Positions 1,880-58,674 of a stretch of DNA of 64,000 nt are shown here, one piece after another. Origin of the DNA: Prosopocoilus inquinatus. Its lineage: Eukaryota > Arthropoda > Insecta > Coleoptera > Lucanidae. A model generated the notes under the pieces. That model was not told the DNA's origin. It searched no databases and saw only the letters and a list, made by a program, of their open reading frames with translations. The stretch spans positions 24,618,001-24,682,000 of the forward strand of contig CM069872.1 in NCBI GenBank assembly GCA_036172665.1, in the 5' to 3' direction. The translations under genes and the position numbers were made by a program. The stretch's first letter is position 1. The number at the start of each line of letters is the position of its first letter.

Positions 1880-1925
1880 TTTAGAAAAATTTTGTGCAAA
1901 TCGTTTTTGATTGCAGTGAGAACCT

Positions 1926-1988
1926 CGAGCAGCCTCCGGACAGCTGTTTCAGCCCTGCTTGGGGCTTCTTCAGCAGAAACGTAGCTCG
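1926..1988 (-). ncRNA. Type I hammerhead ribozyme, array A unit 1
   Basis: 63 nt. Reading the minus strand: distal stem I CGAGC, loop UAC, proximal stem I GUUUCUG, core CUGAAGA, stem II AGCCC with loop CAAGCA and GGGCU, core GAAA, minimal stem III CAGCUG, cleavage triplet GUC. The 3' stem I strand here is CGGAGGC, so one A-U pair becomes a G-U wobble. All core bases are intact. Confidence 0.88.
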
Positions 1989-2237
1989 ACATTCCCACTG
2001 CAGACCAAAAACGACTTGCCCAATTTATTCGCAAATGCGATGTAAGAATGATGAACATATAAAATAGCGACATCTTACTATCGCCTTTTGACCTAACATT
2101 GCAGTAGGATAGACAAATTGAAGCGGGATTTGCTCCTAATGAGTCCCTCATGCAAGGCGGCCATGCTTGCTGTCAAAGCATAATGAAAGATTTTAGAAAA
2201 ATTTTGTGCAAATCGTTTTTGATTGCAGTGAGAACCT

Positions 2238-2300
2238 CGAGCAGCCTCTGGACAGCTGTTTCAGCCCTGCTTGGGGCTTCTTCAGCAGAAACGTAGCTCG
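2238..2300 (-). ncRNA. Type I hammerhead ribozyme, array A unit 2
   Basis: Consensus copy: every core base and all stem I, II and III pairs are present. Cleavage is predicted 3' of GUC on the minus strand, next to CAGAGGC. Exactly 312 nt from units 1 and 3. Confidence 0.9.
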
Positions 2301-2549
2301 ACATTCCCACTGCAGACCAAAAACGACTTGCCCAATTTATTCGCAAATGCGATGTAAGAATGATGAACATATAAAATAGCGACATCTTACTATCGCTTTT
2401 TGACCTAACATTGCAGTAGGATAGACTAATTGAACCGGGATTTGCTCCTAATGAGTCCCCCATGCAAGGCGGCCATGCTTGCTGTCAAAGCATAATGAAA
2501 GATTTTAGAAAAATTTTGTGCAAATCGTTTTTGATTGCAGTGAGAACCT

Positions 2550-2612
2550 CAAGCAGCCTCTGGACAGCTGTTTCAGCCCTGCTTGGTGCTTCTTCAGCAG
2601 AAACGTAGCTCG
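2550..2612 (-). ncRNA. Hammerhead ribozyme with weakened stem II, array A unit 3
   Basis: The core is intact. The distal stem I strand is GCUUG instead of GCUCG, giving a G-U wobble. Stem II reads AGCAC against GGGCU, so one pair is replaced by an A-G mismatch. Probably weaker than its neighbours. Confidence 0.8.
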
Positions 2613-2861
2613 ACATTCCCACTGCAGACCAAAAACGACTTGCCCAATTTATTCGCAAATGCGATGTAAGAATGATGAACATATAAAATAGCGACATCTT
2701 ACTATCGCTTTTTGACCTAACGTTGCAGTAGGATAGACAAATTGAAGCGGGATTTGCTCCTAATGAGTCCCCCATGCAAGGCGGCCATGCTTGCTGTCAA
2801 AGCATAATGAAAGATTTTAGAAAAATTTTGTGCAAATCGTTTTTGATTGCAGTGAGAACCT

Positions 2862-2924
2862 CGAGCAGCCTCTGGACAGCTGTTTCAGCCCTGCTTGGGG
2901 CTTCTTCAGCAGAAACGTAGCTCG
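2862..2924 (-). ncRNA. Type I hammerhead ribozyme, array A unit 4
   Basis: Consensus copy with intact core, 5-bp stem II and two-part stem I. The array ends about 50 nt beyond it. Confidence 0.9.
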
Positions 2925-2976
2925 ACATTCCCACTGCAGACCAAAAACGACTTGCCCAATTTATTCGCAAATGCGA

Positions 2977-4037
2977 CGAATATTAGAGAGAGAGAAAACT
3001 AGCCTCGATCAGCTGGGTTAGGGCAAAACGTCAAAATTAGTTTGACAATGTCAAAACGTGGAAACATTCGTTGTCTGTGCGTTTAGTCTGTTAGTTTTCA
3101 AATTGGATTTTGTGGGGTCGTTTTCTCGATTTTAAGTTTATTTTATTTATTTGAAGTGACTTATCAAGTTTTTGTTTATTATTCAATTAAATTCAACATC
3201 CATTAATTTCGCTTCTAGTTTTCACGGGATGTTTTAAATAATTTTGAATGTCATTTTATTAGATTTTTAGTTTTATGTAAGTGACTATTTTATTCTAAAA
3301 AGATAAACAGGTTTCTTAAATATCTTTTATTATCATATTTCAATAATCGCGTTAATAAAATGTAAAATACCTACTTGTTTCGCTGATGATTGCATAAATA
3401 TGCGACAAAAAGATGTAAATGTATCCATCCACAGAGAGGGTAGACGCATTTTAAAATTACTTAAAATATTGAATATATTTCGTATTACACGCATGTGCAA
3501 ATTGTAAAAATAGATTCGATAGTCTAATTTAAAATTGGAATATGAACTACAAATTACGAAGTTCATTAATTTTTGACAATTCGCCATTCAACCACTTACT
3601 CGCCATGGCAACGGTGTTTGCAAACGCATTAAGCAATGTCGGGTCAAAAAGCGATAGTAAGATGCCGCTATTTTATCTGTGCATTAAGCTTAGTTGATAC
3701 CACGTGGTATCGGCCATTTCTGATCTTTGTTACCCTTAGGGGATGCTCATATTATCTTTCTCTCTCTAATGTTAAAGCCGATGCAGTCCTATTCAAAATG
3801 ACACTAGACTCCATCTAATCTTATTACATCATTGGTCATAACTTATGTTTAACCTAGTCTGAATATTTCCACCGTTTTTGATATGAATTTGTGTAAATGC
3901 TTTTAGTGCATTTCGTGTTTAGTTTGTTTTCATTCAAATTCGTAAAATTTGTATCGGGTTCCGCTGCACGAACAAAATTTGACTCCCACTTACTGCACCG
4001 AAAAACTGTCAACGTGCCCGGACACAGGTAAAAATAT
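2977..4037. other. Gene-free DNA apart from a 46-bp insertion
   Basis: AT-rich sequence between array A and Gypsy G1. Apart from the 46-bp hammerhead-repeat fragment at 3635-3680 I recognise nothing. The open frames at 3333-3587 and 3636-3818 have no motif. Confidence 0.5.
3635..3680 (+). mobile_element. 46-bp 5'-truncated insertion of the hammerhead repeat
   Basis: Only the 3'-terminal 46 bp of the repeat is present. It includes the small hairpin AGCGA/CGCT and the terminus TATTTTATCTGT. It is flanked by perfect 9-bp duplications GCATTAAGC at 3626-3634 and 3681-3689. A clean target duplication around so short a piece indicates insertion by 3'-end-primed copying with early termination. The ribozyme itself is not included. 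Confidence 0.85.
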
Positions 4038-4387
4038 TGTTACGTTTCTAGGGTTTAAATTTATTTATTTAAACGAATAAAAAACACTCGGTAAAAACTT
4101 AACCGTAATTTAATACTGCTTACGAACTAATTTATTTTTACAATTTATTTACACACTAAAATCTAACTTCGACGATCGCTGTTAGACTCCTGAGTCCATC
4201 CCGGGCGATTTTATATCCTTTGCTGCCCTCTCGAATTTTCTAACGCTGGAAGATTCGAGTTTGTTCCATCGCCGGAAAAGTCTAGTCTGTTCGATGTAGA
4301 CCCCGGTGGCGTGGCAGCCAATGACGCATAACGAACCGACTTCTTGACGCCTTGAGCTTGACGTAATAAGCCGGGTGGTGCGCCACA
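4038..4387 (-). repeat. 3' LTR of Gypsy G1
   Basis: 350 bp, TGTGGCGCGCC-type start and TAACA end on the minus strand, preceded by a purine-rich polypurine tract (AAGAAGGGGGCAG) just inside it. Same family as the G2 LTRs and the three solo LTRs. Confidence 0.93.
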
Positions 4388-4389
4388 CT

Positions 4390-4975
4390 GCCCCCTTCTT
4401 AAAAACGTTTCGTCTCGAAATGTTCCTGGCGATAGTCTTGAAGGAGGGTGTCGGAATCTACAAGCTGGCCCATTCTTGCAACTTCCCGTCTGGAAGAAGT
4501 AGCAGTCTACGGTTTTGCTGTTGCTGACTGTTGCCTGTGGGTGGTGGCTGCAGACTAGGATTTCAATTCCCGTTCTGTGGAAGATGACTTCCAGCATGCT
4601 TCGAATTACTCTCCAGTCTAGTCCGTCCAATCCGCAGCCCAATTTGGGGATGGCTAACTTCATCTGATGGTTCTCTATTAGCTGTCTCCTCAGGCTATAT
4701 AGGGCTCCCCGCATACTTTGATAGTCAGGTTTACCGCTTGATGTCCTCTTAGTGACTAAATAATGCACGTGGCGCCTCCGATCTGCCGTCGAATCAATGA
4801 TCTGCAAGCTCTTGCCTACCACGGGATGCTGTCTTCGTAGCTCCTCGATTTGGCCAAATTTCTTCCTAAACACCTGAGCGATTCCTTTGGACATTTTCAG
4901 GTCTTCTGCTACTCAGTGGGCCAGACTGTACTCCAGTGGCACTTTAAAGAGATCTTGTTGCTTCTCCGTGGTCAC
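4390..4975 (-). pseudogene. G1 pol C-terminal extension: OARD1/TARG1-like macrodomain plus CCCH zinc finger
   Basis: After the integrase tail the frame continues into a macrodomain of the small ADP-ribosyl-hydrolase class. Visible are YSLAH..VAED at the start, MSKGIAQVFRKKFG (the glycine-rich ADP-ribose loop), HYLVTK with the lysine that is catalytic in that class, and KLGCGLDGLDW with the paired catalytic aspartate. A C-x7-C-x5-C-x3-H zinc finger follows (CYFFQTGSC...CRFRH). A TGA at 4913-4915 replaces a Cys codon present in G2, so this copy is broken. Family function (removing ADP-ribose from carboxylates) is established for cellular relatives; what it does for the retroelement is unknown. 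Confidence 0.85.
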
Positions 4976-5514
4976 TCCAAACCGTGCCTTACTTCCTTCG
5001 GCGTGGTGAGACATGAAGGTTTCGAAGTTCACTTCGGAAACTTGCGCCCTTTGTACTGTCCCTTCATCTGCTTCTCCATGGTAAGGGGCTATCCGGTTGA
5101 AGTGGATTACTTTGGGTTTGCCATGGGGGACCTTCTTGATGCGGTAAACGACGTCGTTGATCCGTTTCATCACTTTGTAAGGACCTTCCCAAGAGGTCTG
5201 CAATTTTGGGGAAAGGCCTCGACGTCTTTAGGGGTTATAAAGCCAGACCAATGCTCCAGGTTGGTATCCCCCGTGTTGAGCGTTGATGTCATAGTGCTCC
5301 TTCATCCGATCGCTGGCCGTCTGTATATTGTGACGCACTTGGTTGTGGATGTCATCCATTTTCCTGCGTAATTTGCTCACGTAATCTTCGTCGGCAGAGA
5401 CTTCGCCAGGCTTCACACCAAACTTCAGGTCGCAGGGCAGTCTCGGCTCTCGCCCGAATACCACTTTCGCGGGAGTCTCCCCTGTTGTCTCATGAACAGA
5501 TGAGCGGTATGCCA
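4976..5514 (-). pseudogene. G1 integrase C-terminal half
   Basis: Contains the end of the catalytic core (MAYRSSVHETTGETPAKVVFGR, with the GxTPxxxxxGR signature), a helical linker, and the SH3-like GALVWLYNP / WEGPYKVMKRINDVVYRI region ending at HFNRIAPYHG. It is separated from the rest of the core by the Harbinger insertion. Reading frame changes near 5228. The segment joins directly onto the macrodomain extension. Confidence 0.88.
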
Positions 5515-13112: not shown

Positions 13113-13115
13113 ATA

Positions 13116-13372
13116 CAGTGGGAATGTCGAGCTACGTCTCTGCTGAAGAAGCCCCAAGCAGGGCTGAAACAGCTGTCCAGAGGCTGCTCGAGGTTTTCAC
13201 TGCAATCAAAAACGATTTGCACAAAATTTTTCTAAAAACTTTCATTATGCTTTGACAGCACGCATGGCCGCCTTGCATGGGGGACTTATTAGGAGCAAAT
13301 CCCGCTTCAATTTGTCTATCCTACTGCAATGTCAGGTCAAAAAGCAATAGTAAGATGTCGCTATTTTATCTG
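13116..13372 (+). repeat. Array B, single partial unit of the 312-bp hammerhead repeat
   Basis: Plus orientation, from CAGTGGGAATGTCG to the family 3' terminus TATTTTATCTG. It abuts the truncated 5' end of Gypsy G1. I see no convincing target duplication. Confidence 0.85.
13128..13190 (+). ncRNA. Type I hammerhead ribozyme, array B
   Basis: Core CUGAAGA and GAAA intact with a GUC cleavage triplet. The 5' proximal stem I strand is GUCUCUG, which turns a U-G wobble of the consensus into a C-G pair, so pairing is kept or improved. Confidence 0.88.
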
Positions 13373-13381
13373 TTTAAATTT

Positions 13382-14262: not shown

Positions 14263-15004
14263 TGCACAGAATGCAACAAACATTTCAGTAACTTATCTAA
14301 TTTAAGGAAGCATGTCAGACTGTTGCACCCAGATAAATTACAAAATAGAGCTCCATTATTTTACAAAAATAAGGATAATTTTAGTTTTTCCTGTACTATT
14401 TGTAACATAAACTTCAATACGGAACGATATTTACGCCATCATTTGAAGTCGCATAAAGAAATTGTAGTGAATCCGTTCAAATTTCAAATAAAAATTCAAA
14501 AAAGTGCCCACTATGTTCTTTCTGTGATTCCAAAACTGAAAATATGTTTCGAGCAAGTGCATGAAATTATTACAATTTACAAAGATGTAGAATTTACTTC
14601 ATTATATGACTTTGAGCAATGGTTGAAAGATGTAGAAAAGAAAACACAATCTAAATTTGTGAATTTTTCTATACCTTACAAAAGAGGAAAGACAAAATTT
14701 AGCATCCCAAATTGCTGCTAAAGTCGACGTTTGAAGATATTTTGGATGGTGTTAGAGATTCTATTTCAAATTTGGAACTGGAGAAAATTCATTTACTGCG
14801 AAGAAAAGATTTATATAATATAGAAAAAAGTTTTAATTTAACTTCAAATTCCGTGAGACATTCCAATGATGCAATTAGCATAGATGCTTGGGTAAGCGAG
14901 ATGAGAAGAGAGAATGGTTGTGTAATACTTTACAAATCTCAAGGAATCGTATTGGTAGACCATCCATGGCTAAAGAGTGAAGATTTTGTCCTGATGATTA
15001 TGAC
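14263..15004 (+). pseudogene. MULE-like transposon protein, N-terminal part with two C2H2 fingers
   Basis: Two C2H2 zinc fingers (CTECNKHFSNLSNLRKHVRLLH near 14263-14328 and CTICNINFNTERYLRHHLKSH near 14392-14455) are followed by a conserved helical region. After a one-base frameshift near 14712 come RHSNDAISIDAWV, CVILYKSQG and LKSEDFVLMIMT. This layout resembles the N-terminus of insect Mutator-like transposases just before the DDE domain. It is cut at 15004 by the hAT insertion, and no catalytic part follows on the other side. Confidence 0.55.
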
Positions 15005-17148
15005 TAGAGACCGGATTTATAAGTTTTTACAAGTTTTTTACGCTAACATACCTAAACTTGGCGTTTTGTATTTATATGTTTGTCGATTAGAGAAGCCCAA
15101 AAATGGTAGTTTTATTTCGCATATAACTTAATATTTTAGACTTTTAGCGCATATTTATTTATTTATCCATATATTGATATAAATAACATTATAATTCCAT
15201 ATACGGTCAATATTCAAGTCTGCAGCTTTTCCAAGAAGTAATTTATTCTTCTCAACGTCTGGCCACTTTATTTTACGATTTCCCGGAATGTGATTTTCTG
15301 GGAATCTGTAGCGACTTGCACTTGCATTTTGCACTTATGTTTTGCATTTCAGTTTGAGATAAGAACTCCGTGAATGTGTGTGACTAGTGACTAGTGTATT
15401 TATCAACGCGAATTAGTTGTTATTTTCTTATTTAATTTAAAGACGAAATAAATTCAGTGCTTATCTTTTCAAAATGCCGAAAGTAGCATCCTCTCGATCC
15501 GAGCTATTGAAAAAATGGATTAAAGCATCTAAACATCTAACTACAGATGGAAAAGTTATTTTTTGCAACGCATGCTCAAAACAGGTAGATACCTTACAAA
15601 TTCTCTTAAAAATCACATTTTCATTTTGACAATATTTTAAGGTGTCGTCAGACCAAAAGTACCAGATTGATCAACATTTGGCTACAAACCTCCATAAGGA
15701 GTCGGAGAAAAGATGTGTGTCTAACTTTAAGCAATCTTTTATTTCTTCAACAGCCAGTAACTCACAGGGCAGTGACACAGGAAATGAATTCTTTTTAGAC
15801 TTGTGCAGTGCTATGGCAGAGTCAAACATTCCTTGGCATAAACTTGAACAAGCAAGTTTTCGAACTTTTTTGGAAAAATATTGCAATCGTCATATTCCAA
15901 ATGAATCGACTTTGCGGAAAAACTATCTAAGTATATGCTACCAGCAACGGATGAAGAAAATAAGAGAGAAGCTTAGCGACAACAATATTTATATAGTAGT
16001 TGATGAAACGACAGATGCCTGCGGTCGTTATGTAGCAAATATGTTAGCAGGAGTATTAAGCAACACAGTTGCACCAATATCTTATTTGGTAAATAGTGCA
16101 GTTTTGAAAAAAACAAATCATTCAACGATCGCACGTTTTATTAACGACAGCTTGACACTTTTATATGCACCTAATCAAGTTAAATCGGAAAATATATTAC
16201 TAATGGTGTCTGATGCAGCAGCCTACATGATAAAAGCAGGACAGGCTTTACAGGTGTTTTACCCAAATCTGATGCACTTCACTTGTATGGCTCACACAAT
16301 GAATAGGCTCGCTGAATTGGTGCGACTAGAATACCCAACAGTAAATAAGTTGATCAATAACGGAAAAAAGGCGTTTCTTAAAGCCCCACAACACTATAAA
16401 GAATTAGCTGCTGACCTGCCATTACCACCAGAACCAATAATTACGAGATGGGGTACGTGGCTTGAAGCAGCAAATTTTTACGCAGATAACTTTAAACAAT
16501 TAAAGGAAATTTTCTTGGAATTGGATGATTCCAATTCAGCGGCTTTAAGAATTTGTAAGGAATGCATGTCGAACACAAACATCGGGAATCAATTAGCATT
16601 CATTAAAACTCATTTTTCGGTTTTAATATCCACCATTAAAAAGTTGGAATCATCCCAGACGGCTCTATTAGATTCTTTTGAAGTGGTCGATGATGCAATT
16701 GAAAGTATAAAATCAATTCCAGGGGAGATAGGAGAGAAGTTAATGGCAAAATTAGACAAGGTTCTATTACGTAATCCTGACTACAATAAAATGAGGAAAA
16801 TCTGTTTAGTTTTAAAAGGTCAAAGTGAAGAGGATTTGGACATGGACCCCAAAGATGTAGCATCCATGAAATTTGAGCCCATTACTTCATGCGATGTCGA
16901 GCGTTCGTTTTCCTCTTATAAAAATATTTAAATAATTTAAATCAACTGTTGATTATATTTTGTAATCCTACTATTTAAGTGTTAAGTGTTAAAATTACTT
17001 ATATGAAACAATTTATGTTTTTATTATTCTAAAGTATGTATAAGTAAAATAAAATTTTTATCGCATATAATATCCATATTTTGATCCATTTTAATCGCAT
17101 AAAAAAACTTATTTTCCACTTTTTTAGCACATATAAATCCGGACTTTA
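15005..17148 (+). mobile_element. hAT element, copy 1
   Basis: 2144 bp, ends TAGAGACCGGATTTAT and the inverse of TAAAGTCCGGATTTAT. Flanks ATTATGAC and GTTATCAC match at 6 of 8 positions, so the target duplication is decayed or the site was altered. It carries one spliced transposase gene and interrupts the MULE fragment. Essentially the same sequence as copy 2 in opposite orientation. Confidence 0.92.
15474..16931 (+). pseudogene. hAT transposase (CGBP1-like subgroup), copy 1
   Basis: Exon 1 (15474-15584) encodes a BED-like zinc-finger start (LLKKWIKASKHL, FCNACSKQ). A 57-bp intron (15585-15641) ends in TTTTAAG, and exon 2 supplies the finger's His (DQHLATNLHKE) and the RNase H-like core. 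Catalytic-region landmarks: VVDETTDACGRY, SDAAAYM, CMAHTMNRLAE, TRWGTWLEAA and VERSFSSYKN. The protein stops right after VERSFSSYKNI, although the next frame still shows LLIIFCN typical of the family C-terminus. A deletion with frameshift has therefore removed the end of the dimerisation region. Copy 2 has the same defect. Confidence 0.85.
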
Positions 17149-18348: not shown

Positions 18349-18592
18349 TTCTAGCACTTGAATATGTGGTGTCAAAAAATGAAATAATTTGATTAAGAAC
18401 TAAAGCCTCTACGACACGAATCATTTATTTACGTGAATTGTAAGTTTAACGTAGATATAGGCAAAAGAAACGAAACATTGAAATTACAATCTTTTTTAAG
18501 TCACGACCAAAGACTTAGTTAGGAAGTAAGTTGAAAATCTAACGGGATATGGTCACTGGACGATTAGTAAAAGGCAACTCCTTTGTTTAAGG

Positions 18593-18631
18593 CCTCAATA
18601 TTTCGTTGTATTTAACAACTTCATCAGGAGG
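18593..18631 (-). ncRNA. Hammerhead-like motif in left arm of the foldback
   Basis: Minus strand: CCUC, CUGAUGA, an extra A, stem II GUUGU with loop UAAAU and ACAAC (5 perfect pairs), GAAA, UA, cleavage-type UU, then GAGG pairing with CCUC. The core bases match a hammerhead, but the extra A before stem II, a very short stem III and a weak AUU triplet make activity uncertain. Confidence 0.5.
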
Positions 18632-18827
18632 TTTACTATAAAGTTAACAAGAGGTTAAATAATCCAAATCTTAAGGTTACACTACTTACAACTAGAGATG
18701 GATGAATTGGTCAACAAATACAATGGCTTCAATGATTGTATTTGTTGACCAATTCATCCATCTCTAGTTGTAAGTAGTGTAACCTTAAGATTTGGATTAT
18801 TTAACCTCTTGTTAACTTTATAGTAAA

Positions 18828-18866
18828 CCTCCTGATGAAGTTGTTAAATATAACGAAATATTGAGG
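18828..18866 (+). ncRNA. Hammerhead-like motif in right arm of the foldback
   Basis: Same motif on the plus strand. Stem II here is GUUGU/AUAAC, so a G-C pair of the left arm is a G-U wobble; pairing is kept. Same reservations about the extra A and minimal stem III. Confidence 0.5.
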
Positions 18867-18948
18867 CCTTAAACAAAGGAATTGCCTTTTACTAATCGTC
18901 CAGTGACCATATCCCGTTAGATTTTCAACTTACTTCATTGAAATTACA

Positions 18949-21652: not shown

Positions 21653-21693
21653 ATACTTTCTCCCTCATGTAAATTCTTTTGCGCGTTTTGCGC

Positions 21694-22468: not shown

Positions 22469-22601
22469 GTCGAAATCTAAATTATTTAGACGCAGAATTT
22501 GATCGTGCCTATCGCAAATGCAGCGAGAAATCGAGCCCCGCCGCGCGCGGAATACAACGCCTCTGAGTTTGGACCCTCAGATTCGAGGCCTTAGTTATGA
22601 G

Positions 22602-24746: not shown

Positions 24747-24876
24747 GTTATGAGTGACTCGGATTTCATCGAACGGCCAGCCTGCTGCGCCCACATTATT
24801 TACAGTAGATATTTGTAATTGTAAAAATATTTTAGAAAAATTTTGTGCAAATCGTTTTTGATTGCAGTGAGAACCT

Positions 24877-24939
24877 CGAGCAGCCTCTGGACAGCTGTTT
24901 CAGCCCTGCTTGGGGCTTCTTTAGCAGAAACGTAGCTCG
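24877..24939 (-). ncRNA. Hammerhead ribozyme with inactivating core change, array C
   Basis: All stems are present, but the core reads CUAAAGA instead of CUGAAGA: the invariant G5 is A. This position is essential in hammerheads, so the copy should not cleave. Confidence 0.85.
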
Positions 24940-25188
24940 ACATTCCCACTGCAGACCAAAAACGACTTGCCCAATTTATTCGCAAATGCGATGTAAGAAT
25001 GATGAACATATAAAATAGCGACATCTTACTATCGCTTTTTGACCTAACATTGCAGTAGGATAGACAAATTGAAGCGGGATTTGCTCCTAATGAGTCCCCC
25101 ATGCAAGGCGGCCATGCTTGCTGTCAAAGCATAATGAAAGATTTTAGAAAAGTTTTGTGCAAATCGTTTTTGATTGCAGTGAGAACCT

Positions 25189-39178: not shown

Positions 39179-41116
39179 ATAAGGAGTTTCCTTGGCCTGT
39201 GCACTTACTATCGGCGCTAGGTTCCTGGATTTGCAAACATTGCTAAGCCGTTGACAAAACTCACTGAAGAAGGTCGTCCATTTGAATGGGACCAACAGTG
39301 TCAAATTGGCTTTGAACAACTAAAGCAGTACTTGATTAGTGCTCCTATTCTGAGTTATCCTCTCCCGGAAGGCAAATTCGTCGTGGAAACAGATGCTAGC
39401 AACGTTGGGATTGGTGGCGTACTCTCCCAGATACAAGAGGGGCAAGAGAAGGTGATCGGCTACTTCAGTAAAGTCCTATCAAAGCCGGAACGAAACTATT
39501 GCGTCACAAGAAGGGAATCGCTAGCCGTCGTAAAAACGATAGAACACTTCTACAAGTACTTGTATGGCAGACGCTTCCTGCTGAGGACCGACCATGCCGC
39601 TCTAAAATGGCTTCTCCGTTTTAAGAACCCAGAAGGGCAAGTTGCACGATGGATCGAACGACTTCAGGAGTACGATTTTGAAATTCAGCATCGGGCAGGA
39701 ACTAGCCATCGAAATGCCGATGCTCTGTCGAGAAGACCCTGTGCCGAAGACTGTAAGCACTGTAGTCGTTTGGACGAGAAAGTAGCGACGACTGCGAGGA
39801 CAGCCATTGTTGACGACAAATGGCAAGCCGAAGAACTGCGAAGAGACCAGGAGAACGATCCGGATTTGAAATTAGTGCTAGAGTGGAAAAGCAGGGACGC
39901 GAGGCCTACCTGGGAAGAGGTAGCACCATGTGCACCGTCCGTAAAATCATACTGGGCGCAGTGGGACTCCATATTGTTGGATCGTGGTCTTCTGAGACGA
40001 AGCATAGAGAATCAGGAAGGCATGGAACAGAAGACACAGTTACTAATCCCCAAGAATAGGGTGCCAGAAGTTCTGAGGGAACTTCACGATGGAACTTCGG
40101 GAGGGCATCTGGGAGTTAAGAAGACTATGGAGAAGGTGCGCAAAAAATTTTACTGGGTGAACTGCAAGGAAGACGTGAAGGATTGGTGCAGAAAGTGTGC
40201 AGTCTGCGCAGCCAGTAACGGTCCCTACAGGCGGTGTAAGGCCCCCATGAGACAGTACAACGTTGGAAGTCCTTTTGAGAGAGTTGCCATCGATGTAGCC
40301 GGCCCGTTTCCAGAAACGAATGGTGGAAATAAGTACATCGTCGTGGTAATGGACTACTTTAGCAAGTGGGTTGAAGCTTACGCCCTACCTAACCAAGAGG
40401 CAGTCACTATTGCGGAAGTCCTTGTCAGGGAATGGATCAGTCGGTATGGTGCACCTATCGAACTGCATTCAGACCAAGGAAGGAACTTTGAATCGGCATT
40501 GTTCAAGAACGTGTGTACTCTGCTCGGCGTACGAAAAACTAGAACAACTGCACTCCACCCACAGTCGGACGGAATGGTGGAAAGGTTCAATAGAACCATC
40601 AACCGACATTTGTCCAAGGTCGTTTCCGATCATCAGAGGGACTGGGACACGTACATCCCCCTGTTTCTAATGGCATACCGCTCATCTGTTCATGAGACAA
40701 CAGGGGAGACTCCCGCGAAAGTGGTATTCGGGCGAGAGCCGAGACTGCCCTGCGACCTGAAGTTTGGTGTGAAGCCTGGCGAAGTCTCTGCCGACGAAGA
40801 TTACGTGAGCAAATTACGCAGGAAAATGGATGACATCCACAACCAAGTGCGTCACAATATACAGACGGCCAGCGATCGGATGAAGGAGCACTATGACATC
40901 AACGCTCAACACGGGGGATACCAACCTGGAGCATTGGTCTGGCTTTATAACCCCCAAAGACGTCGAGGCCTCTCCCCAAAATTGCAGACCTCTTGGGAAG
41001 GTCCTTACAAAGTGATGAATCAACGACGTCGTTTACCGCATCAAGAAGGTCCCCCATGGCAAACCCAAAGTAATCCACTTCAACCGGATAGCCCCTTACC
41101 ATGGAGAAGCAGATGA
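39179..41116 (+). pseudogene. G2 RNase H and integrase
   Basis: After a second stop (TAG 39218-39220) the frame is open. RNase H has VETDASNVGIGG, RTDHAALKWLL and HRAGTSHRNADALSR. The integrase zinc domain has HDGTSGGH and CRKCAVC. The core has DVAGPFPETNGGNKYIVVVM, LHSDQGRNFES and PQSDGMVERFNRT, and the SH3-like tail begins GALVWLYNP. A 5-bp deletion near 41022 (after WEGPYKVM) shifts the frame, so the last residues are out of frame and the link to the macrodomain is lost. Confidence 0.92.
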
Positions 41117-41147
41117 AGGAACAGTACAAAGGGCGCAAGTTTCCGAA

Positions 41148-41795
41148 GTGAACTTCGAAACCTTCATGTCTCATCACGCCGAAGGAAACAAGGCACGGTT
41201 TGGAGTGACCACGGAGAAGCAACAAGATCTCTTTAAAGTGCCACTGGAGTACAGTCTGGCCCACTGCGTAGCAGAAGACCTGAAAATGTCCAAAGGAATC
41301 GCTCAGGTGTTTAGGAAGAAATTTGGCCAAATCGAGGAGCTACGAAGACAGCATCCCGTGGTAGGCAAGAGCTTGCAGATCATTGATTCGACGGCAGATC
41401 GGAGGCGCCACGTGCATTATTTAGTCACTAAGAAGACATCAAGCGGTAAACCTGACTATCAAAGTATGTGGAGAGCCCTATATAGCCTGAGGAGACAGCT
41501 AATAGAGAACCATCAGATGAAGTTAGCCATCCCCAAATTGGGCTGCGGATTGGACGGACTAGACTGGAGAGTAATTCGAAGCATGCTGGAAGTCATCTTC
41601 TACAGAACGGGAATTGAAGTCCTAGTCTGCAGCCACCACCCACAGGCAACAGTCAGCAACAGCAAAACCGTAGACTGCTACTTCTTCCAGACGGGAAGTT
41701 GCAAGAATGGGCCAGCATGTAGATTCCGACACCCTCCTTCAAGACTATTTCGAGCAGCAACATTTCGAGACGAAACGTTTTTAAGAAGGGGACAG
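41148..41795 (+). CDS. G2 macrodomain plus CCCH zinc finger (pol C-terminal module)
   Basis: Open from 41148 into the LTR. Macrodomain about residues 30-165: YSLAHCVAEDLKMSKGIAQV, HYLVTKKTSSGKPDYQS with the catalytic-type Lys, IPKLGCGLDGLDWRVI with the partner Asp, and a closing strand IEVLVCSHH. A CCCH finger follows (CYFFQTGSCKNGPACRFRH). Residues needed for ADP-ribosyl hydrolase activity in the OARD1/TARG1 class all appear present. In G1 the same module follows the integrase in frame, so in the ancestor it was part of pol. Role unknown; it could counter host ADP-ribosylation or bind RNA. Confidence 0.85.
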
Positions 41796-42144
41796 TGTGG
41801 CGCGCCACCCGGCTTAGCTCAAGGCGTCAAGAAGTCGGTTCGTTATGCGTCATTGGCTGCCACGCCACCGGGGTCTACATCGAACAGACTAGACTTTTCC
41901 GGCGATGGAACAAACTCGAATCTTCCAGCGTAGAGGATTCGAGACGGCCGCAAAGGATATAAAATGGGCCAAAGTTGACTCACGAGTCAGTCGAATTCGA
42001 ACAGCGATCGTCGAAGTTAGATTTTAGTGTGAAAATAAATTGTTACAAATAAATTAGTTTTTAAGCTTTATTAAATTACGGTTAAGTTTTTATCGAGTGT
42101 TTTATTCGTTTAAATAAATAAATTAAAACCCTAGAAACGTAACA
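41796..42144 (+). repeat. 3' LTR of Gypsy G2
   Basis: 349 bp, TGTGGCGCGCC to AACGTAACA, preceded by the polypurine tract AAGAAGGGGACAG. TATAAAA at 41958 and an intact TCAGT initiator near 41987. Confidence 0.95.
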
Positions 42145-42666
42145 GTATGATTTCCGGCGATGATATGGTGACGCATATTGCTCGGTTTGAAGGTCTGGTT
42201 TTACGTACGCAACAACTTAATGTAAAGCCAGATGAATCATTGTTGTTGGTAAGGCTGATACTTTGCCAGACAGTTATGAAAGCTTGCGTCAGTCTTGGTG
42301 GGCAAAACCTGAAGAATGTCAGAATTTGATTGATATGTTGACTTCAGAAGAAAAACGACGATTACAACGTTTGGTAAAGCAAGACGAATTAGTTTTGCTG
42401 ATGGCAACCAAAGCACGAAGAAAAGAAGGTAACTCAGGAGTTACTGTTGGTGCATATTGTAAGTCAACAAAGAAATTTACCAACTCACCACATGAGAAAG
42501 GAAAAGAAAATAAGTTTAAATGTTTTGGCTCCGGCGGCGTATGATTTGTGAATCGTGGATACTGGAGCAACTGATCACATAACAAATCAATTCGGTTGGT
42601 ATTCGTCGTTTGAATATTTTGCAACATCCATAAAAATTCATATTGGTGACAAATCCACGATGGATG
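42145..42666 (+). pseudogene. Copia gag, C-terminal part, first duplicate
   Basis: Continues Copia gag from MISGDDMVTHIARFEGL through, after a frameshift near 42250, LPDSYESLRQSW and the basic region; the CCHC knuckle is broken (FKCFGSGG then stop). Protease start DTGATDHITNQFG is present near 42560, then truncated at the duplication junction (42666). Confidence 0.85.
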
Positions 42667-42677: not shown

Positions 42678-43581
42678 CAGTAACGGTCCCTACAGGCGGT
42701 GTAAGGCCCCCATGAGACAGTACAACGTTGGAAGTCCTTTTGAGAGAGTTGCCATCGATGTAGCCGGCCCGTTTCCAGAAACGAATGGTGGAAATAAGTA
42801 CATCGTCGTGGTAATGGACTACTTTAGCAAGTGGGTTGAAGCTTACGCCCTACCTAACCAAGAGGCAGTCACTATTGCGGAAGTCCTTGTCAGGGAATGG
42901 ATCAGTCGGTATGGTGCACCTATCGAACTGCATTCAGACCAAGGAAGGAACTTTGAATCGGCATTGTTCAAGAACGTGTGTACTCTGCTCGGCGTACGAA
43001 AAACTAGAACAACTGCACTCCACCCACAGTCGGACGGAATGGTGGAAAGGTTCAATAGAACCATCAACCGACATTTGTCCAAGGTCGTTTCCGATCATCA
43101 GAGGGACTGGGACACGTACATCCCCCTGTTTCTAATGGCATACCGCTCATCTGTTCATGAGACAACAGGGGAGACTCCCGCGAAAGTGGTATTCGGGCGA
43201 GAGCCGAGACTGCCCTGCGACCTGAAGTTTGGTGTGAAGCCTGGCGAAGTCTCTGCCGACGAAGATTACGTGAGCAAATTACGCAGGAAAATGGATGACA
43301 TCCACAACCAAGTGCGTCACAATATACAGACGGCCAGCGATCGGATGAAGGAGCACTATGACATCAACGCTCAACACGGGGGATACCAACCTGGAGCATT
43401 GGTCTGGCTTTATAACCCCCAAAGACGTCGAGGCCTCTCCCCAAAATTGCAGACCTCTTGGGAAGGTCCTTACAAAGTGATGAATCAACGACGTCGTTTA
43501 CCGCATCAAGAAGGTCCCCCATGGCAAACCCAAAGTAATCCACTTCAACCGGATAGCCCCTTACCATGGAGAAGCAGATGA
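42678..43581 (+). pseudogene. Duplicated G2 integrase (core and C-terminus)
   Basis: Identical translation to 40213-41116, including the 5-bp deletion that shifts the frame after YKVM. It lacks RNase H and the integrase zinc domain. The apparent ATG upstream (42643) belongs to the Copia part. Confidence 0.9.
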
Positions 43582-43612
43582 AGGAACAGTACAAAGGGCG
43601 CAAGTTTCCGAA

Positions 43613-44260
43613 GTGAACTTCGAAACCTTCATGTCTCATCACGCCGAAGGAAACAAGGCACGGTTTGGAGTGACCACGGAGAAGCAACAAGATCTCTTTA
43701 AAGTGCCACTGGAGTACAGTCTGGCCCACTGCGTAGCAGAAGACCTGAAAATGTCCAAAGGAATCGCTCAGGTGTTTAGGAAGAAATTTGGCCAAATCGA
43801 GGAGCTACGAAGACAGCATCCCGTGGTAGGCAAGAGCTTGCAGATCATTGATTCGACGGCAGATCGGAGGCGCCACGTGCATTATTTAGTCACTAAGAAG
43901 ACATCAAGCGGTAAACCTGACTATCAAAGTATGTGGAGAGCCCTATATAGCCTGAGGAGACAGCTAATAGAGAACCATCAGATGAAGTTAGCCATCCCCA
44001 AATTGGGCTGCGGATTGGACGGACTAGACTGGAGAGTAATTCGAAGCATGCTGGAAGTCATCTTCTACAGAACGGGAATTGAAGTCCTAGTCTGCAGCCA
44101 CCACCCACAGGCAACAGTCAGCAACAGCAAAACCGTAGACTGCTACTTCTTCCAGACGGGAAGTTGCAAGAATGGGCCAGCATGTAGATTCCGACACCCT
44201 CCTTCAAGACTATTTCGAGCAGCAACATTTCGAGACGAAACGTTTTTAAGAAGGGGACAG
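43613..44260 (+). CDS. Duplicated macrodomain plus CCCH module
   Basis: Identical to 41148-41795, with intact catalytic-type Lys and Asp and an intact zinc finger. It is a separated open frame here too, with no promoter of its own visible other than the LTRs. Confidence 0.83.
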
Positions 44261-44609
44261 TGTGGCGCGCCACCCGGCTTAGCTCAAGGCGTCAAGAAGT
44301 CGGTTCGTTATGCGTCATTGGCTGCCACGCCACCGGGGTCTACATCGAACAGACTAGACTTTTCCGGCGATGGAACAAACTCGAATCTTCCAGCGTAGAG
44401 GATTCGAGACGGCCGCAAAGGATATAAAATGGGCCAAAGTTGACTCACGAGTCAGTCGAATTCGAACAGCGATCGTCGAAGTTAGATTTTAGTGTGAAAA
44501 TAAATTGTTACAAATAAATTAGTTTTTAAGCTTTATTAAATTACGGTTAAGTTTTTATCGAGTGTTTTATTCGTTTAAATAAATAAATTAAAACCCTAGA
44601 AACGTAACA
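44261..44609 (+). repeat. Duplicated G2 3' LTR
   Basis: Copy of 41796-42144 created by the tandem duplication, so it is not a separate insertion, although it too is followed by GTAT. Confidence 0.93.
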
Positions 44610-45340
44610 GTATGATTTCCGGCGATGATATGGTGACGCATATTGCTCGGTTTGAAGGTCTGGTTTTACGTACGCAACAACTTAATGTAAAGCCAGATGA
44701 ATCATTGTTGTTGGTAAGGCTGATACTTTGCCAGACAGTTATGAAAGCTTGCGTCAGTCTTGGTGGGCAAAACCTGAAGAATGTCAGAATTTGATTGATA
44801 TGTTGACTTCAGAAGAAAAACGACGATTACAACGTTTGGTAAAGCAAGACGAATTAGTTTTGCTGATGGCAACCAAAGCACGAAGAAAAGAAGGTAACTC
44901 AGGAGTTACTGTTGGTGCATATTGTAAGTCAACAAAGAAATTTACCAACTCACCACATGAGAAAGGAAAAGAAAATAAGTTTAAATGTTTTGGCTCCGGC
45001 GGCGTATGATTTGTGAATCGTGGATACTGGAGCAACTGATCACATAACAAATCAATTCGGTTGGTATTCGTCGTTTGAATATTTTGCAACATCCATAAAA
45101 ATTCATATTGGTGACAAATCCACGATGGATGCACTTGGAAAAGGGACCATTCAATTTGAATCATCTGTTGATGGAAAATGGATACGTTGTCACATGGAAA
45201 ATGTTCTTTTTGTACCGGCTGCCCGGAGAAATCTATTTTCTGTCACGTCTGCCTTAGACAAGGGCCTGTCATTCAATTCATCAAAAGTAGAATGTGAATT
45301 TGTGAAACATGGTGTTGTGAAAGCGCGTGGTGTGCGTTAA
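44610..45340 (+). pseudogene. Copia gag C-terminus (second duplicate) and protease
   Basis: Repeat of the gag segment, now continuing intact into the aspartic protease: DTGATDHITNQFGWY (active site), IHIGDKSTMDALGKGTI, and LFVPAARRNLFSVTSA, which ends Copia proteases. Stop at 45340 and frame changes in gag. Confidence 0.88.
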
Positions 45341-50917: not shown

Positions 50918-52763
50918 CGATCACGAGCATTCAACGGTGGCGTTTAGAGGTGCCGCACATTCCGTATGTAACATTAATTATAAAGTACCAAAATTCATTC
51001 CGGTTTTCTTTCACAATCTCTCTAATTATGATAGTCATTTATTTGTAAACACAATGGCATTAGAAGGGGAGGATGTTGATGTAATTGCACAAAATAAAGA
51101 GAAATATATTTCTTTTGCAAAAATAATCCATGTAGGAGAATACTTTGATTGTAAAGGAAGAAAGCGTAAAATAAATTTTAAAATAAGGTTCGTGGATTCT
51201 TTCCGTTTCATGCAATCATCTTTGCAGAAATTAAGCTCTTATTTGGAAGATTGGCAGTGTCGGGAAATTAGAAAACACTTCAATGAAGATAAATTGTTTA
51301 AATGGGTGATTATAGTGATGTTTATGTAACATCTCTTAGCAGATGTTTTTGAAAATTTTAGAGATCTGTGTATTAATAATTATAAATTGGATCCTTGTTA
51401 TTTCTATACAGCTCCTGGATTAAGTTGGGAGGCAATGTTGCGAATGACAAAAATTAAATTAGAATTATTACAAGATGTTGATATGTTACATTTTTTCAAA
51501 AACGGTATTCGCGGAGGTATAAGTATGTGTAGTAAAAGAATGAAAAATGCAAATAATAGGTTTTTACAAGACTTTTTTAATATATCTTGATGTTACCAAC
51601 TTATATGGTTTCGCGATGATTTCCATGGGGAAATTTTGTGTGGTTATCCACAGAAGAAATTAATAATTTAAATATTTTACAGTTACAGGAAGATTCGGAT
51701 ATTGGGTACATTTTCAAAGTGGATTTGGAATGTCCTGCTCACTTACACGATCGTCATAATGATTTGCCTTTTTGTCCTGAAAACGTTATTCCACCGAATT
51801 CAGTGTACAGTAAACTTATTCCAAATCTTTGTAATAAAACTAATTACATAATTCATTATTTAAACTTAAAACAATGTTTGGAACAAGGTTTAGTATTGAC
51901 TCGAATTCACAGAACGATTAAATTTTCACAATCTCATACATAGATTTTAATTCCAACAAGCGAGCTGAAGCAAAAAACAAATTTGAATTTTTTTTTATAA
52001 ATTATTCAGTAACAGTGTTTTCGGAAAAACAATGGAAAATATTGAAAATCGCGTTGATATTAAATTAGCAACGCATTCGGAAACACATCACCGAAGACTG
52101 GGAGCTGAAGTGTTGATTGCGAAACCAAACTATAAGTCAAGCAAAATATTTGGTAATCATTTAGTCGCAATAGAATTAGCTAAGGTGCAAATAAATTATA
52201 ATAAACCTTTATACGTGGGATTTTCTGTTTTAGACATATCAAAAACAGTGATGTACGATTTTTACTTTAATTTCATAAAACTAAAGTATGACAATCATGC
52301 AAACCTATTATATACGGATACGGACAGTTTAATAGTGAGCATTACTATTAATAATGTATACGATGATATAAAACAGAATTTAGATAAATTTGATACTTCA
52401 AATTATGCGGCAAATAATATGCACCAAATACCTCAAACTCAGACTATGGTTGGAAAATTTAAAGATGAATACGCCGGAGAGATAGTAAAATCGTTTATTA
52501 GCACAGGTGCGAAACCCTATTGTATTAACCTTATTTCAAATTGTACTAAAAGAGCGAAAGCTGTCAAAAAATATATAATAGAGAAACATTTACCTGTAAA
52601 TGATTATAAACAAATTGTCGAACAGGATGATTGTATTTATAGAAAAATGTATTTCGTTCTGATTTTCATACGTGTCATACTGTGTACACAGAATAAACAA
52701 ACAAAATTGCATCATCATATGATGACAAAAATCATACTCTGGCATGGGGCCACTACAAAATAG
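50918..52763 (+). pseudogene. polB: Polinton protein-primed family B DNA polymerase, C-terminal two thirds
   Basis: Begins inside the exonuclease-side region (RGAAHSVCN...FFHNLSNYDSHL). Motif A, LDVTNLYGFAM, lies near 51587-51620 across a frame change. Motif B has NSVFGKTMENIENR near 52005-52050, and motif C YTDTDSLIV is near 52314. The N-terminus and terminal-protein region are absent. Stops or frameshifts occur near 51330, 51590 and 51945. Family and order are clear; the gene is dead. Confidence 0.9.
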
Positions 52764-53584: not shown

Positions 53585-54205
53585 TTCAAAGATGTATGTG
53601 CGTGTCGAATCCTATGCGACATCTTCCTGCGTTGATGGAACAGTCAGTATCGATTACTAAAAAACCAAACGGTTCCTTCCAACAAGCGCAGCATATATCA
53701 TTGAAACTGGTCCGTGCTGAAATCTGCGTTAACGTGGTCATCATAAATGTGCTTTAAATTTGTGGAATCTTGACGGAACAGCACCAAAAAATTACAGTTA
53801 TCACGAATTAATTGTTTAGGAATCGCACTATAAGTTTGACTTAAATAAAAGCAATCGACATTTTTATGACGTCCAAAAGAAAAATATTTAATTAAATTTT
53901 GTATAGTACATTTAACATCATCAAACACAACAACCGAATATTCTTTTACATTTTTAGGTGATACCATCTTATCAATGTCAGAAATTTCAAAGTAATTTAT
54001 CTCGGGCACTGTTGCTAGCAATTGTCGAAGAAATTCATACTTTCCCTGGGATAAGGTCTTACAACAAATGTATAAATTTTTAAAACGCAATCCGTTAGGG
54101 TGTGTTAAAAGCGTAACCAATAGGTTGCTTTTGCCAGCCCCTGATCTTCCGCTAATAATACCACGTTTGCTGATTTTCCATAAAAGATTAAATGGTTATA
54201 TAATC
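53585..54205 (-). pseudogene. Polinton packaging ATPase (FtsK/HerA type)
   Basis: Walker A SGRSGAGKSN lies near 54150-54120, just upstream of the first ATG. Walker B VVVFDDV is near 53935, then FYLSQTY and the arginine-containing FLVLFRQD. After a +1 frameshift near 53700 the conserved C-terminus is readable (CCACWKEPFGFLVIDTD, GRCRIGFD) to about 53585. A stop lies just upstream of the Walker A region, so the N-terminus is lost. In intact elements it would pump DNA into a capsid. Confidence 0.85.
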
Positions 54206-55334: not shown

Positions 55335-55869
55335 TAAATCGGTTATATCAGGATTTTTAGGTGAGGAAGGAAAAGAAGGTAGCGAAATATTTTCTACTTG
55401 CACTTTCCCCTGAATTAATTGTGCAGGAGACGGTAAGTTGTGTAAAACCATCTCACAGTGAGATTCAGATGCTGCACTACGAGACGGTCCTGCACAATTT
55501 CTTACGTCCTGCATATAAGATACAATTTTCTGGCCGGGAATAATTTCATCTGAAATTTCTGGAGGTGATTGCATTAAATTTGAAACAGAATTTGGAATTA
55601 AATTTGAAACTAATTTAGTTGGAGGCACCTCAAAATGAGAAATTACTTTAATTTAATTTTTCTAAAAACTTTCATTATGCTTTGACAGCAAGCATGGCCG
55701 CCTTGCATGGGGGACTTATTAGGAGCAAATCCCGCTTCAATTTGTCTATCCTACTGCAATGTCAGGTCAAAAAGCGATAGTAAGATGTCGCTATTTTATC
55801 TGTTCATCATTCTTACATCGCAATTGCGAATAAATTGGGCAAGTCGTTTTTGGTCTGCAGTGGAAATGT

Positions 55870-55932
55870 CGAGCTACGTCTCTGCTGAAGAAGCCCCAAG
55901 CAGGGCTGAAACAGCTGTCCAGAGGCTGCTCG
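55870..55932 (+). ncRNA. Type I hammerhead ribozyme, array D unit 1
   Basis: Intact core and GUC triplet; proximal stem I strand GUCUCUG as in array B. Confidence 0.9.
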
Positions 55933-56181
55933 AGGTTTTCACTGCAATCAAAAACGATTTGCACAAAATTTTTCTAGAAACTTTCATTATGCTTTGACAG
56001 CAAGCATGGCCGCCTTGCATGGGGGACTTATTAGGAGCAAATCCCGCTTCAATTTGTCTATCCTACTGCAATGTTAGGTCAAAAAGCGATAGTAAGATGT
56101 CGCTATTTTATATGTTCATCATTCTTACATCGCAATTGCGAATAAATTGGGCAAGTCGTTTTTGGTCTGCAGTGGAAATGT

Positions 56182-56244
56182 CGAGCTACGTCTCTGCTGA
56201 AGAAGCCCCAAGCAGGGCTGAAACAGCCGTCCAGAGGCTGCTCG
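56182..56244 (+). ncRNA. Hammerhead ribozyme with altered stem III, array D unit 2
   Basis: Core intact; stem III is CAGCCG instead of the palindrome CAGCUG, losing one pair in monomer or dimer form. Confidence 0.85.
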
Positions 56245-56695
56245 AGGTTTTCACTGCAATCAAAAACGATTTGCACAAAATTTTTCTAAAAACTTTCATT
56301 ATGCTTTGACAGCAAGCATGGCCGCCTTGCATGGGGGACTTATTAGGAGCAAATCCCGCTTCAATTTGTCTATCCTACTGCAATGTCAGGTCAAAAAGCG
56401 ATAGTAAGATGTCGCTATTTTATCTGTTTAATTTTATTATTAACATTAGTGATAGGGGTAGAAGTAGTAGACTGTGATAATTGAGATACCCTCATCGACG
56501 AATCGGATATCTCAATTATTTCGGAATTAAATGATGAATTTAGAAGAACATTATCTGTAAGAACTCGAGGTCCTGACTGATTTGACAACCTCGAAGTCAG
56601 GTATAAAGATCGTTGCTTAGTGAATAGTATTTGATTTGGAGGTGAGTGCATATACGATGAGACAGTTCGTCGATTAACTTTCGCATCATTCATAC

Positions 56696-57021
56696 TGTTT
56701 CGCGCCACCCGGCTTAGCTCAAGGCGTCAAGAAGTCGGTTCGCTGTTATGCGTCATCGGCCGTCACGCCACCGGGGCCTACATCGAACAGACTAGACTTT
56801 TCGAGCATGGAGGATTCTAGACGACCGCAAAGGATATAAAATGGGCCAAAGTTGACTCACCAGTCAGTCGAATTCGAACAGCGATCGTCGAAATTAGATT
56901 TTAGTGTGAAAATAAATTGTTACAAATAAATTAGTTTTTAAGCTTTATTAAATTACGGTTAAGTTTTTATCGAGTGTTTTATTCGTTTAAATAAATAAAT
57001 TAAAACCCTAGAAACGTAACA
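56696..57021 (+). repeat. Gypsy solo LTR in the unidentified ORF
   Basis: 326 bp, plus orientation, starts TGTTTCGCGCC, ends GTAACA, with ATAC at 56692-56695 and 57022-57025. The ORF reads through in frame when it is removed (KLKRQR then MNDAK). Confidence 0.94.
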
Positions 57022-57262
57022 ATACGTTGACGCTTCAACTTAAAATACTCTTCCCCAGGCAAATACGATCTTTTGCGGGAACAACCTGCTTTGACTTGAG
57101 TGACAGTTGAACGATTAATTTCTTCTTGGAGGTGAACAGTTTCAACCACTTGCTTTGTGGCAGATGATAAAATACGATTCACCTCCTGAGAAATAAAAAG
57201 GTCAAACATGTCACCCACTGTATTCAGTACCGCATTTGTGATCGGGTCATCTAGCTGCGTCG

Positions 57263-57306
57263 ATGTCAGGTCAAAAAGCGATAGTAAGATGTCGCTATTT
57301 TATCTG
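57263..57306 (+). mobile_element. 44-bp fragment of the hammerhead repeat 3' end
   Basis: ATGTCAGGTCAAAAAGCG to TATTTTATCTG, same 3' terminus as arrays B and D. No clear target duplication. It marks the lost 5' side of the unidentified ORF. Confidence 0.75.
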
Positions 57307-57349
57307 TTGATAAATATGTTAGTAAATATAAAAAATATAGTAAATATAT

Positions 57350-57373
57350 AGTAAGATGTCGCTATTTTATCTG
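57350..57373 (+). mobile_element. 24-bp fragment of the hammerhead repeat 3' end
   Basis: AGTAAGATGTCGC to TATTTTATCTG, 24 bp, again ending at the family 3' terminus. Short but exact. Surroundings are TAGTAAATATA repeats. Confidence 0.6.
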
Positions 57374-57599
57374 TTCATAAAAAAAATACGTTTTACACTC
57401 ACTGTGATTGTTTGCTTGAAAATAATTATATCTGAAAAAGAATCAGAATCAAATTAACTCATCACACATACAAACAACATTGTAGAGAGCAAATATTATA
57501 AATGAATATTATAAAAGCGCTTACCAATAGAGATCAACTTGCTGTGGAATACTGGCGAAGGGCGGCAGTGAGGGGATCGTAGTTAAAGGTTGATGGTGG

Positions 57600-57870
57600 A
57601 GTCAGTTACAGATTTCTGTATTTGAATAGCAATAGATTAGAATAGGTTTCTACAGTTTTAGGAAGATTCTAACATAGATTTCTGTATTTGAATAGGAAAA
57701 GGTGAAAGTATATTTCTACAGATTTCTCTATTTAGATAGGAATAGCCGAAGATGCTAAACAGATTTTTGTAGTAGAGTAGGAATAGTTGGGAGTAGGTTT
57801 CTACACTTCTGCAAGGAAGGTAAAGCAGATTTCTGTATTTCAATAAGAATAGCCGGGTGTATAGATGTCT
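57600..57870 (+). repeat. Degenerate tandem repeat, about 55-60 bp period
   Basis: Four to five diverged units based on CAGATTTCTGTATTTGAATA and GGAATAG, with GTTTCTACA submotifs. No coding meaning seen. Confidence 0.65.
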
Positions 57871-58430
57871 GTAATGCAGTAGTACTTGTGAATGAGTAAA
57901 ACTTATTTCGTAAATTTGTGTAGTTATCGATCCTCATGACACTTTACGTTACAATTTTCTTTTAAATTTATATAAAGTGAAACAGACTACCGATGAATGC
58001 TTACTGACTAATTTGAAATTCTACATTTTATAGAAAAAGTCAATCGATTCTAAGCATTTATGTTATATTTTTTCTGAAAAATATATGTGAATGAGTAAAC
58101 TTATTCCATAAAGCAAACACCTATTACGTAATGTCAATAATCTACCTATTTTATTATCAATTTCGTATTTTGTATTTTCTAAAAAGTATATAGAAAAGTG
58201 ACTTTTTTGTTCTGTTCACCCTGAAAATTGGAAGATACATTAAGTTTTCTGTAAAATTTATGACGAGAGAGACATACTACTAATGAGCTAAGTCTATATC
58301 ATTGTTACAAAAAATGTTACCATGTCCATTGGCTAACCAGAGTTTACTCTCAAATTAATTTACAGTAAGCCTGTGTATATTCTATTTCTTATGAAAAATA
58401 TAACCAACATCGTGTTAATAAAATCATAAA
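57871..58430. other. No recognisable feature
   Basis: AT-rich non-coding DNA between the minisatellite and array E. Confidence 0.5.
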
Positions 58431-58674
58431 CAGATAAAATAGCGACATCTTACGATCGCTTTTTGACCTGACATTGCAGTAGGATAGACAAATTGAAGCG
58501 GGATTTGCTCTTAATAAGTCCCCCATGCAAGGCGGCCATGCTTGCTGTCAAGGCATAAGAAAGTCTTGAAAAAAAATTTTGTGCAAATCGTTTTTGATTG
58601 CAGTGAAAACCTCGAGTAGCCTCTGTACAGCTGTTTCAGCCCTGCTTGGGGCTTCTTCAGCAGAGACGTAGCAC
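58431..58674 (-). repeat. Array E, single truncated hammerhead-repeat copy
   Basis: Minus orientation; its 3' terminus (CAGATAAAATAGCG on the plus strand) is at 58431 and its 5' end is cut inside stem I of the ribozyme near 58674. More diverged than other copies. No target duplication seen. Confidence 0.85.
58613..58672 (-). ncRNA. Hammerhead ribozyme, array E, distal stem I missing
   Basis: Core intact; cleavage triplet GUA instead of GUC (still of the permitted NUH type); proximal stem I GUCUCUG pairs with CAGAGGC. The distal stem I strand is lost at the element boundary, so loop-loop stabilisation is probably gone. Confidence 0.78.

Follow-up and report, generated by a model that had tools for sequence, protein, structure and literature searches.

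A 312-bp hammerhead repeat of Prosopocoilus inquinatus with the anatomy of a non-LTR retrozyme and the insertion order of Penelope-like elements

The 64-kb stretch of the Prosopocoilus inquinatus genome analyzed here (assembly GCA_036172665.1, contig CM069872.1, positions 24,618,001 to 24,682,000; hereafter the window) carries arrays of a 312-bp repeat that, judged by its sequence, is a retrozyme of the kind without long terminal repeats (non-LTR) in anatomy. Its copies are also inserted in the order seen in Penelope-like elements, and such elements are numerous in the same genome and include an intact open reading frame (ORF). Our reading of these observations is that a non-LTR retrozyme RNA would be self-cut into circular 312-nt monomers and copied in trans by a Penelope-like protein, and we assign it a probability of roughly 0.78. 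Directly visible in the genome are the repeat unit, its hammerhead, two preferred ends, a head-to-head order of arms, flank repeats, and Penelope-like elements with a like order and two ends of their own. An earlier sequence-only reading had proposed an insect retrozyme-like family, and its retrozyme part is supported: the 312-nt repeat is mobile, each full unit has a type I hammerhead with a minimal stem III, and target duplications occur (cf. PMC7229834). What it overlooked is that many copies are not plain tandem arrays: their arms are paired head-to-head, and the 3' starts of these arms lie at two fixed sites inside the unit.

Repeat unit and hammerhead ribozyme

Units (GC content 43.3%) were numbered in the RNA sense from the ribozyme cut, with q1 just after and q312 just before it. 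The hammerhead of the full unit reads CUGAAGA / 5-bp stem II / GAAA / C(AGCU)G / UC, and its stem I consists of 7 + 6 pairs around a UAC/U internal loop, the outer part being UCGAGC/GCUCGA. CUGAAGA, the 5-bp stem II and the minimal stem III had been described correctly before, but the outer part of stem I has 6 pairs and not 5. The earlier count of twelve hammerheads on both strands of the window was borne out, as we found 12 type I hammerheads (5 on the + and 7 on the - strand), 11 of them with an intact core. In the covariance check proposed at that time, the Rfam model RF00163 (Hammerhead_1) aligned over its full length and in the same register at 25605-25651 (E = 4e-4 with a 101-base query), but with 23.8 bits it stayed under the 34-bit cut-off, and at curated thresholds Rfam gave 0 matches across the window. 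With 1.5 kb of array A (1880-2976) as query, HH9 was the one hammerhead family in the output (14.5 bits, E = 4.2), and an older copy in stretch L024 gave no hammerhead match at E ≤ 1. Most young copies carry CUGAAGA and GUC; variant copies carry CUGAUGA or CUGACGA, or GUA. Hammerheads tolerate substitutions at these two positions.

Folded as a circle, one 312-nt unit from the window reached -109.1 kcal/mol, as compared to -73.8 ± 5.0 kcal/mol for 100 shuffles (z = -7.0). The predicted fold is a long rod that starts from the ribozyme stem, stem I of the monomer extending through more internal loops, with a branched region beyond.

Genome-wide (650 Mb, 173 contigs), a 35-place core pattern had 7679 + 7668 = 15,347 exact matches, while the reversed pattern had 0 + 0, which argues that the hammerhead core is not a product of chance. 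Twelve insertions were found in 220 kb of unselected sequence (L005-L026, 22 stretches of 10 kb each), extrapolating to a genome total of ~35,000 insertions (Poisson range ~18,000 to 62,000). Length-weighted segment identity between these unselected insertions and the window unit was 81 to 94%. Two units outside the window showed 100% identity over 312 bases, and some activity must therefore have been recent.

Head-to-head pairs with two preferred ends

We analyzed 40 insertions, i.e., 7 from the window, 5 from the adjoining stretches L001-L004, 12 from the unselected stretches L005-L026, 10 from L027-L036 and 6 from L037-L042. Stretches L027-L036 held the best matches to one window unit and are hence long and young, and L037-L042 were picked for closely spaced cores, three of them being already visibly '-+' in the core list; 16 of the 40 insertions were thus selected by similarity or neighbouring cores. 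L033, which begins right at a stretch boundary, was left out of the anatomy scoring (n = 39) and kept in the variant analysis.

Two arms in opposite orientation made up 21 of the 39 insertions (5/12 among those that were unselected), and the other 18 had a single orientation. The RNA 3' ends pointed outward in 21/21 inverted insertions. Outer ends concentrated at two places of the unit, E1 (around q197, range q192-210) and E2 (around q54, range q49-75), which are two largely unpaired AU-rich stretches in the folded consensus. In 19 of the 21 pairs one arm ended at E1 and its partner at E2; the remaining two combined E1 with q10 and E2 with q226, and no pair among the 21 had E1 twice or E2 twice. 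Single-orientation insertions ended at E1 (11), at E2 (6) or elsewhere (1). Among 100 listed cores, which all come from the initial 5.84 Mb of a single contig and are not independent of L037-L042, opposite-strand neighbours within 1 kb were '-+' in 16 cases and '+-' in 0.

At 21 of 39 insertions the two flanks shared an exact repeat ≥9 bp long, as compared to 3.2% of mismatched flank pairs. The repeats averaged 89% AT (distant flanks, 67%); as the flank windows take in 12 element bases, part of a flank repeat may be element end. No filled/empty site pair was found when array flanks were compared with the window and with L001-L020. These data also bear on the possibility that the repeat is a satellite spread by DNA-level duplication, its hammerhead being a relic. 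Such a satellite would fit the tandem 312-bp order and the frequent damage among the older copies read; the presence of short insertions on 12 contigs, their flank repeats and their preferred ends, and the 15,347 exact cores speak so clearly against it that we consider it highly improbable.

Penelope-like elements in the same genome

A profile search of the genome for the GIY-YIG domain yielded 2232 first-look candidates, of which 150 were scored and 150/150 were over the cut-off. Neighbours within 10 kb among these 150 were 47 '-+', 0 '+-' and 1 '--'. One intact ORF of 788 aa combines RVT_1 (53.5 bits) and GIY-YIG (29.5 bits), and the element that carries it is, on this domain content, a Penelope-like element; no relatives of this ORF were found in PDB at E ≤ 0.01. 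In four Penelope pairs (L043-L045, chosen for shortness among the 47 '-+' pairs, and L008 2099-2331, met in an unselected stretch) there were two different 3' ends ~38 nt apart, one per arm, and L043-L045 had, by eye, 11- to 13-bp target duplications. The Penelope 3' region holds a hammerhead-like CUGAAGA...GAAA-UACGUA-UU, with the CUGAAGA core also seen in the repeat and a palindromic one-pair stem III, but with an extra U and with no Rfam match (E ≤ 1). The L008 pair, very short and with both 3' ends, lies ~140 bp from a retrozyme insertion (2468-2561).

A different mobilizer could be a long interspersed nuclear element (LINE) with an APE-type endonuclease, in which case the inverted pairs would be ordinary twin priming. 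Twin priming likewise yields outward RNA 3' ends and similar-sized target duplications, both of which are compatible with the insertions described here, and LINEs are common in this genome (14144 first-look RVT_1 candidates, all kinds). A LINE would less readily explain that, in 19 of 21 pairs, each arm has a fixed end of its own, and three LINE-like 3' ends finish in simple repeats, unlike E1 and E2. Moreover, the 150 top-scoring of the 14144 RVT_1 candidates, used as a control, had only one '-+' and one '++' neighbour within 10 kb, so that head-to-head neighbours numbered 47 for GIY-YIG and 1 for RVT_1 (150 scored each). We thus regard a LINE as an unlikely mobilizer; the enzyme of the Penelope-like elements would be the best candidate for moving the retrozyme, and quite a probable one.

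Earlier work on Penelope-like elements provides parallels. In work with a purified Penelope protein from anole, both strands were cut and extended, with initiation at two neighbouring sites inside the RNA that match the genomic tail (PMC11167929); Penelope elements were described as most often head-to-head, with a 31-bp tail optional on one arm (PMC3846280). As far as these two accounts go, the repeat is like Penelope-like elements in its head-to-head order, two internal starts and short target duplications. Unlike them, it encodes no reverse transcriptase or endonuclease.

Several observations weigh against the reading we prefer. The spacing between E1 and E2 is ~143 nt, as compared to ~38 nt between the Penelope starts in this genome and 30-40 nt in the Penelope-like elements of the accounts just cited, and the sequence shared by retrozyme ends and Penelope ends is not above chance (6.8% of controls reach the best similarity). 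The RVT_1 control under-counts truncated arms, because RVT_1 lies farther from the 3' end than GIY-YIG. In the Penelope assay, as reported in PMC11167929, the strands showed no difference in start site, hammerhead mutants inserted equally and unprocessed RNA was the main substrate; the ribozyme may therefore not be needed. Head-to-head order has earlier been attributed to self-priming on an antisense template (PMC3846280), and LINE-like 15-bp target duplications were given for Nematostella repeats (PMC4918200). Finally, arrays C and D and insertion L039 switch alleles between copies, which is not expected of one circle.

Single or mixed templates

Variants were compared among 19 young insertions, with q128 and q136 excluded and with rare variants defined as those in at most 2 of the 19. 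In insertions with three or more copies, 6 rare variants were present in all copies, 1 in some copies and 43 in one copy; in two-copy insertions, 3 were present in both copies and 12 in one. Seven of the nine all-copy variants were common to both arms. These all-copy variants fit an insertion being templated by one unit, for which a monomeric circle read repeatedly would be the simplest form, and the balance of the variant data tips us moderately towards a monomeric circle as the template.

The main competing possibility is that the same Penelope mobilizer copies an uncut linear multimer, with the hammerhead unnecessary for insertion. It would readily explain the mixing of alleles inside single insertions (arrays C and D at q156/q193, L039 at q130); overall, commoner alleles were uniform in 20 cases and mixed in 9. 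In addition, 5 of the 9 all-copy variants came from the single insertion L033, and subfamily alleles may be among the nine, insertion-specific and subfamily alleles being inseparable in a sample of 19 insertions with rare meaning at most 2. As the spread of one unit's rare variant to every copy of an insertion is most easily obtained from a monomer, we consider the linear multimer a possible but distinctly less probable template.

Positions q128 and q136 had seemed to show C128G and/or T136A in one unit per insertion (L027-L036 and array A). This pattern was rejected as ascertainment, because the query carried G128 and A136 and the six insertions chosen by hammerhead pattern show none; the idea of an RNA polymerase III B-box that rested on it fell as well.

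Proposed mechanism and relation to known retrozymes

Under the mechanism that we favour, the type I hammerheads of a multimeric transcript would cut it at every unit, and the resulting 312-nt monomers would be circularized and copied to DNA by the protein of the genome's Penelope-like elements; cleavage, circularity and the use of this enzyme in trans are steps that we infer from the sequences described above. A staggered cut by the enzyme would open AT-rich target DNA, and each of the two free DNA ends would prime reverse transcription at its own internal RNA site, the AU-rich E1 (q~197) or E2 (q~54). Each reverse transcription would proceed backwards, at times beyond one turn of the unit, and the two cDNAs would be joined head-to-head. 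Retrozymes would then be parasites of Penelope-like elements, whose enzyme would round a monomeric ribozyme circle repeatedly from two open stretches and leave a head-to-head insertion; for this fuller account we claim a modest preference.

Non-LTR retrozymes are already known from animal groups, insects included, and their proposed movers are LINEs or Penelope-like elements (PMC7229834; PMC7761336; PMC11722881). Mobilization by Penelope-like elements is thus a proposal of the earlier literature, and the choice between the two movers is left undecided in these papers. A mostly title-level literature search, in which preprints and subscription papers were little covered, returned no title linking retrozymes to the head-to-head two-start signature, and the words "retrozyme" and "circular" are absent from the main text of PMC11167929. 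If our reading is correct, the insertion signature would be direct genomic evidence of which enzyme mobilizes an animal retrozyme, and the partner could be checked in any genome. The signature (head-to-head arms, two preferred starts, one per arm, and short AT-rich flank repeats) could be looked for in the sequences of corals, mussels, newts and crickets; a direct biochemical test would pair Penelope protein with retrozyme RNA.

As compared to the metazoan non-LTR retrozymes outlined in PMC7229834 (coral, mussel, axolotl), the unit falls within the tandem range of ~170-400 bp and likewise has a type I hammerhead per unit, GC <50% and target duplications >4 bp; stem III of the axolotl HHR_Amex1 is a single pair under a palindromic tetraloop, as it is here. 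That account is of tandem repeats, and its available portions do not mention head-to-head pairs or two fixed starts. A hammerhead within an insect repeat is also found in pDo500 of Dolichopoda cave crickets, which is described as satellite DNA and was compared by description only. Plant LTR retrozymes, as characterized in PMC4918200, are similarly non-autonomous, with a hammerhead and a proposed circular RNA. Their hammerheads are of type III and lie in the LTRs of larger units, none of which occur here: no LTR turned up in the insertions read, with no search aimed at a primer-binding site or polypurine tract being made.

Arrays and stumps in the window

Tandem Repeats Finder detected a period of 312 at 1880-2976, 25327-26153 and 55655-56428, and blastn with one unit as query added arrays at 13116-13374 and 58422-58672, with up to 3.5 units of 312 bp within one arm. 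The five arrays of the sequence-only reading were thereby recovered, except that array C is not one tandem array, as blastn resolved it into two arms of opposite strand, 24825-25327 (-) and 25324-26153 (+), that meet head-to-head.

Array A (1880-2976, - strand) is one arm of ~3.5 units with its RNA 3' end at E2 (q59) and with hammerheads on the - strand at 1925-1989 (65 nt), 2237-2301, 2549-2613 (stem II mismatch) and 2861-2925; no clear target duplication was found in its flanks. Array B (13116-13374, + strand) is one arm that runs from q251 to E1 (q197), with a hammerhead at 13127-13191 (+). Its left flank, unlike its right one, matches the Gypsy-like copy at 36571-36881. In array C, the left arm has its RNA 3' end at E2 (q65) and hammerheads at 24876-24940 (broken core, CUAAAGA) and 25188-25252, both on the - strand, and the right arm has its RNA 3' end at E1 (q196) and hammerheads at 25595-25659 (which includes the RF00163 match) and 25907-25971, both on the + strand. 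The pair is flanked by a target duplication, TGTAAAAATATT, at 24820-24831, where it possibly overlaps the element end, and at 26151-26162, where its first letters may be element end.

Array D (55655-56428, + strand), one arm from q48 to E1 (q197) with the flank repeat TTTAATTTT, has hammerheads at 55869-55933 and 56181-56245 (stem III loop variant CAGCCG), both on the + strand. Array E (58422-58672, - strand), one arm with its RNA 3' end close to E1 (q204), has a hammerhead at 58612-58676 (-), in which outer stem I is missing at the 5' end of the arm. Three stumps carry only the final stretch of the unit: one at 3633-3692 (+) consists of the E1 end only and has the flank repeat GCATTAAGC, and those at 57263-57311 (+) and 57348-57378 (+) terminate at E1.

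The length of the unit is divisible by three, and on the sense strand (e.g., 25646-25957) one frame has a single stop per unit and 103 open codons. As older unit copies carry one-base deletions, this open frame is probably due to chance.

Other features of the window and sampled stretches

A long run of unknown bases occupies ~2459-5070 of stretch L015. Near-palindromes in the window at 21687-22475 (~785 bp) and 18523-18936 (~415 bp) did not match the Penelope pieces L043 and L046. An inverted duplication of 2147 bp with 99.9% identity (15003-17148 and 22602-24748) carries the same 433-aa open frame on both sides, which we take to resemble a piece of a hAT transposase. Open frames at 51987-52763 (+) and 53698-54195 (-) presumably resemble the DNA polymerase and packaging ATPase of Polinton/Maverick elements. 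The Gypsy-like element in the window has a 33-bp tandem repeat within its gag-like open frame (36170-36598), and a Gypsy-like element also contains a 2454-bp direct duplication with 100% identity (40213-42666 and 42678-45131), which is either very recent or an assembly artefact.

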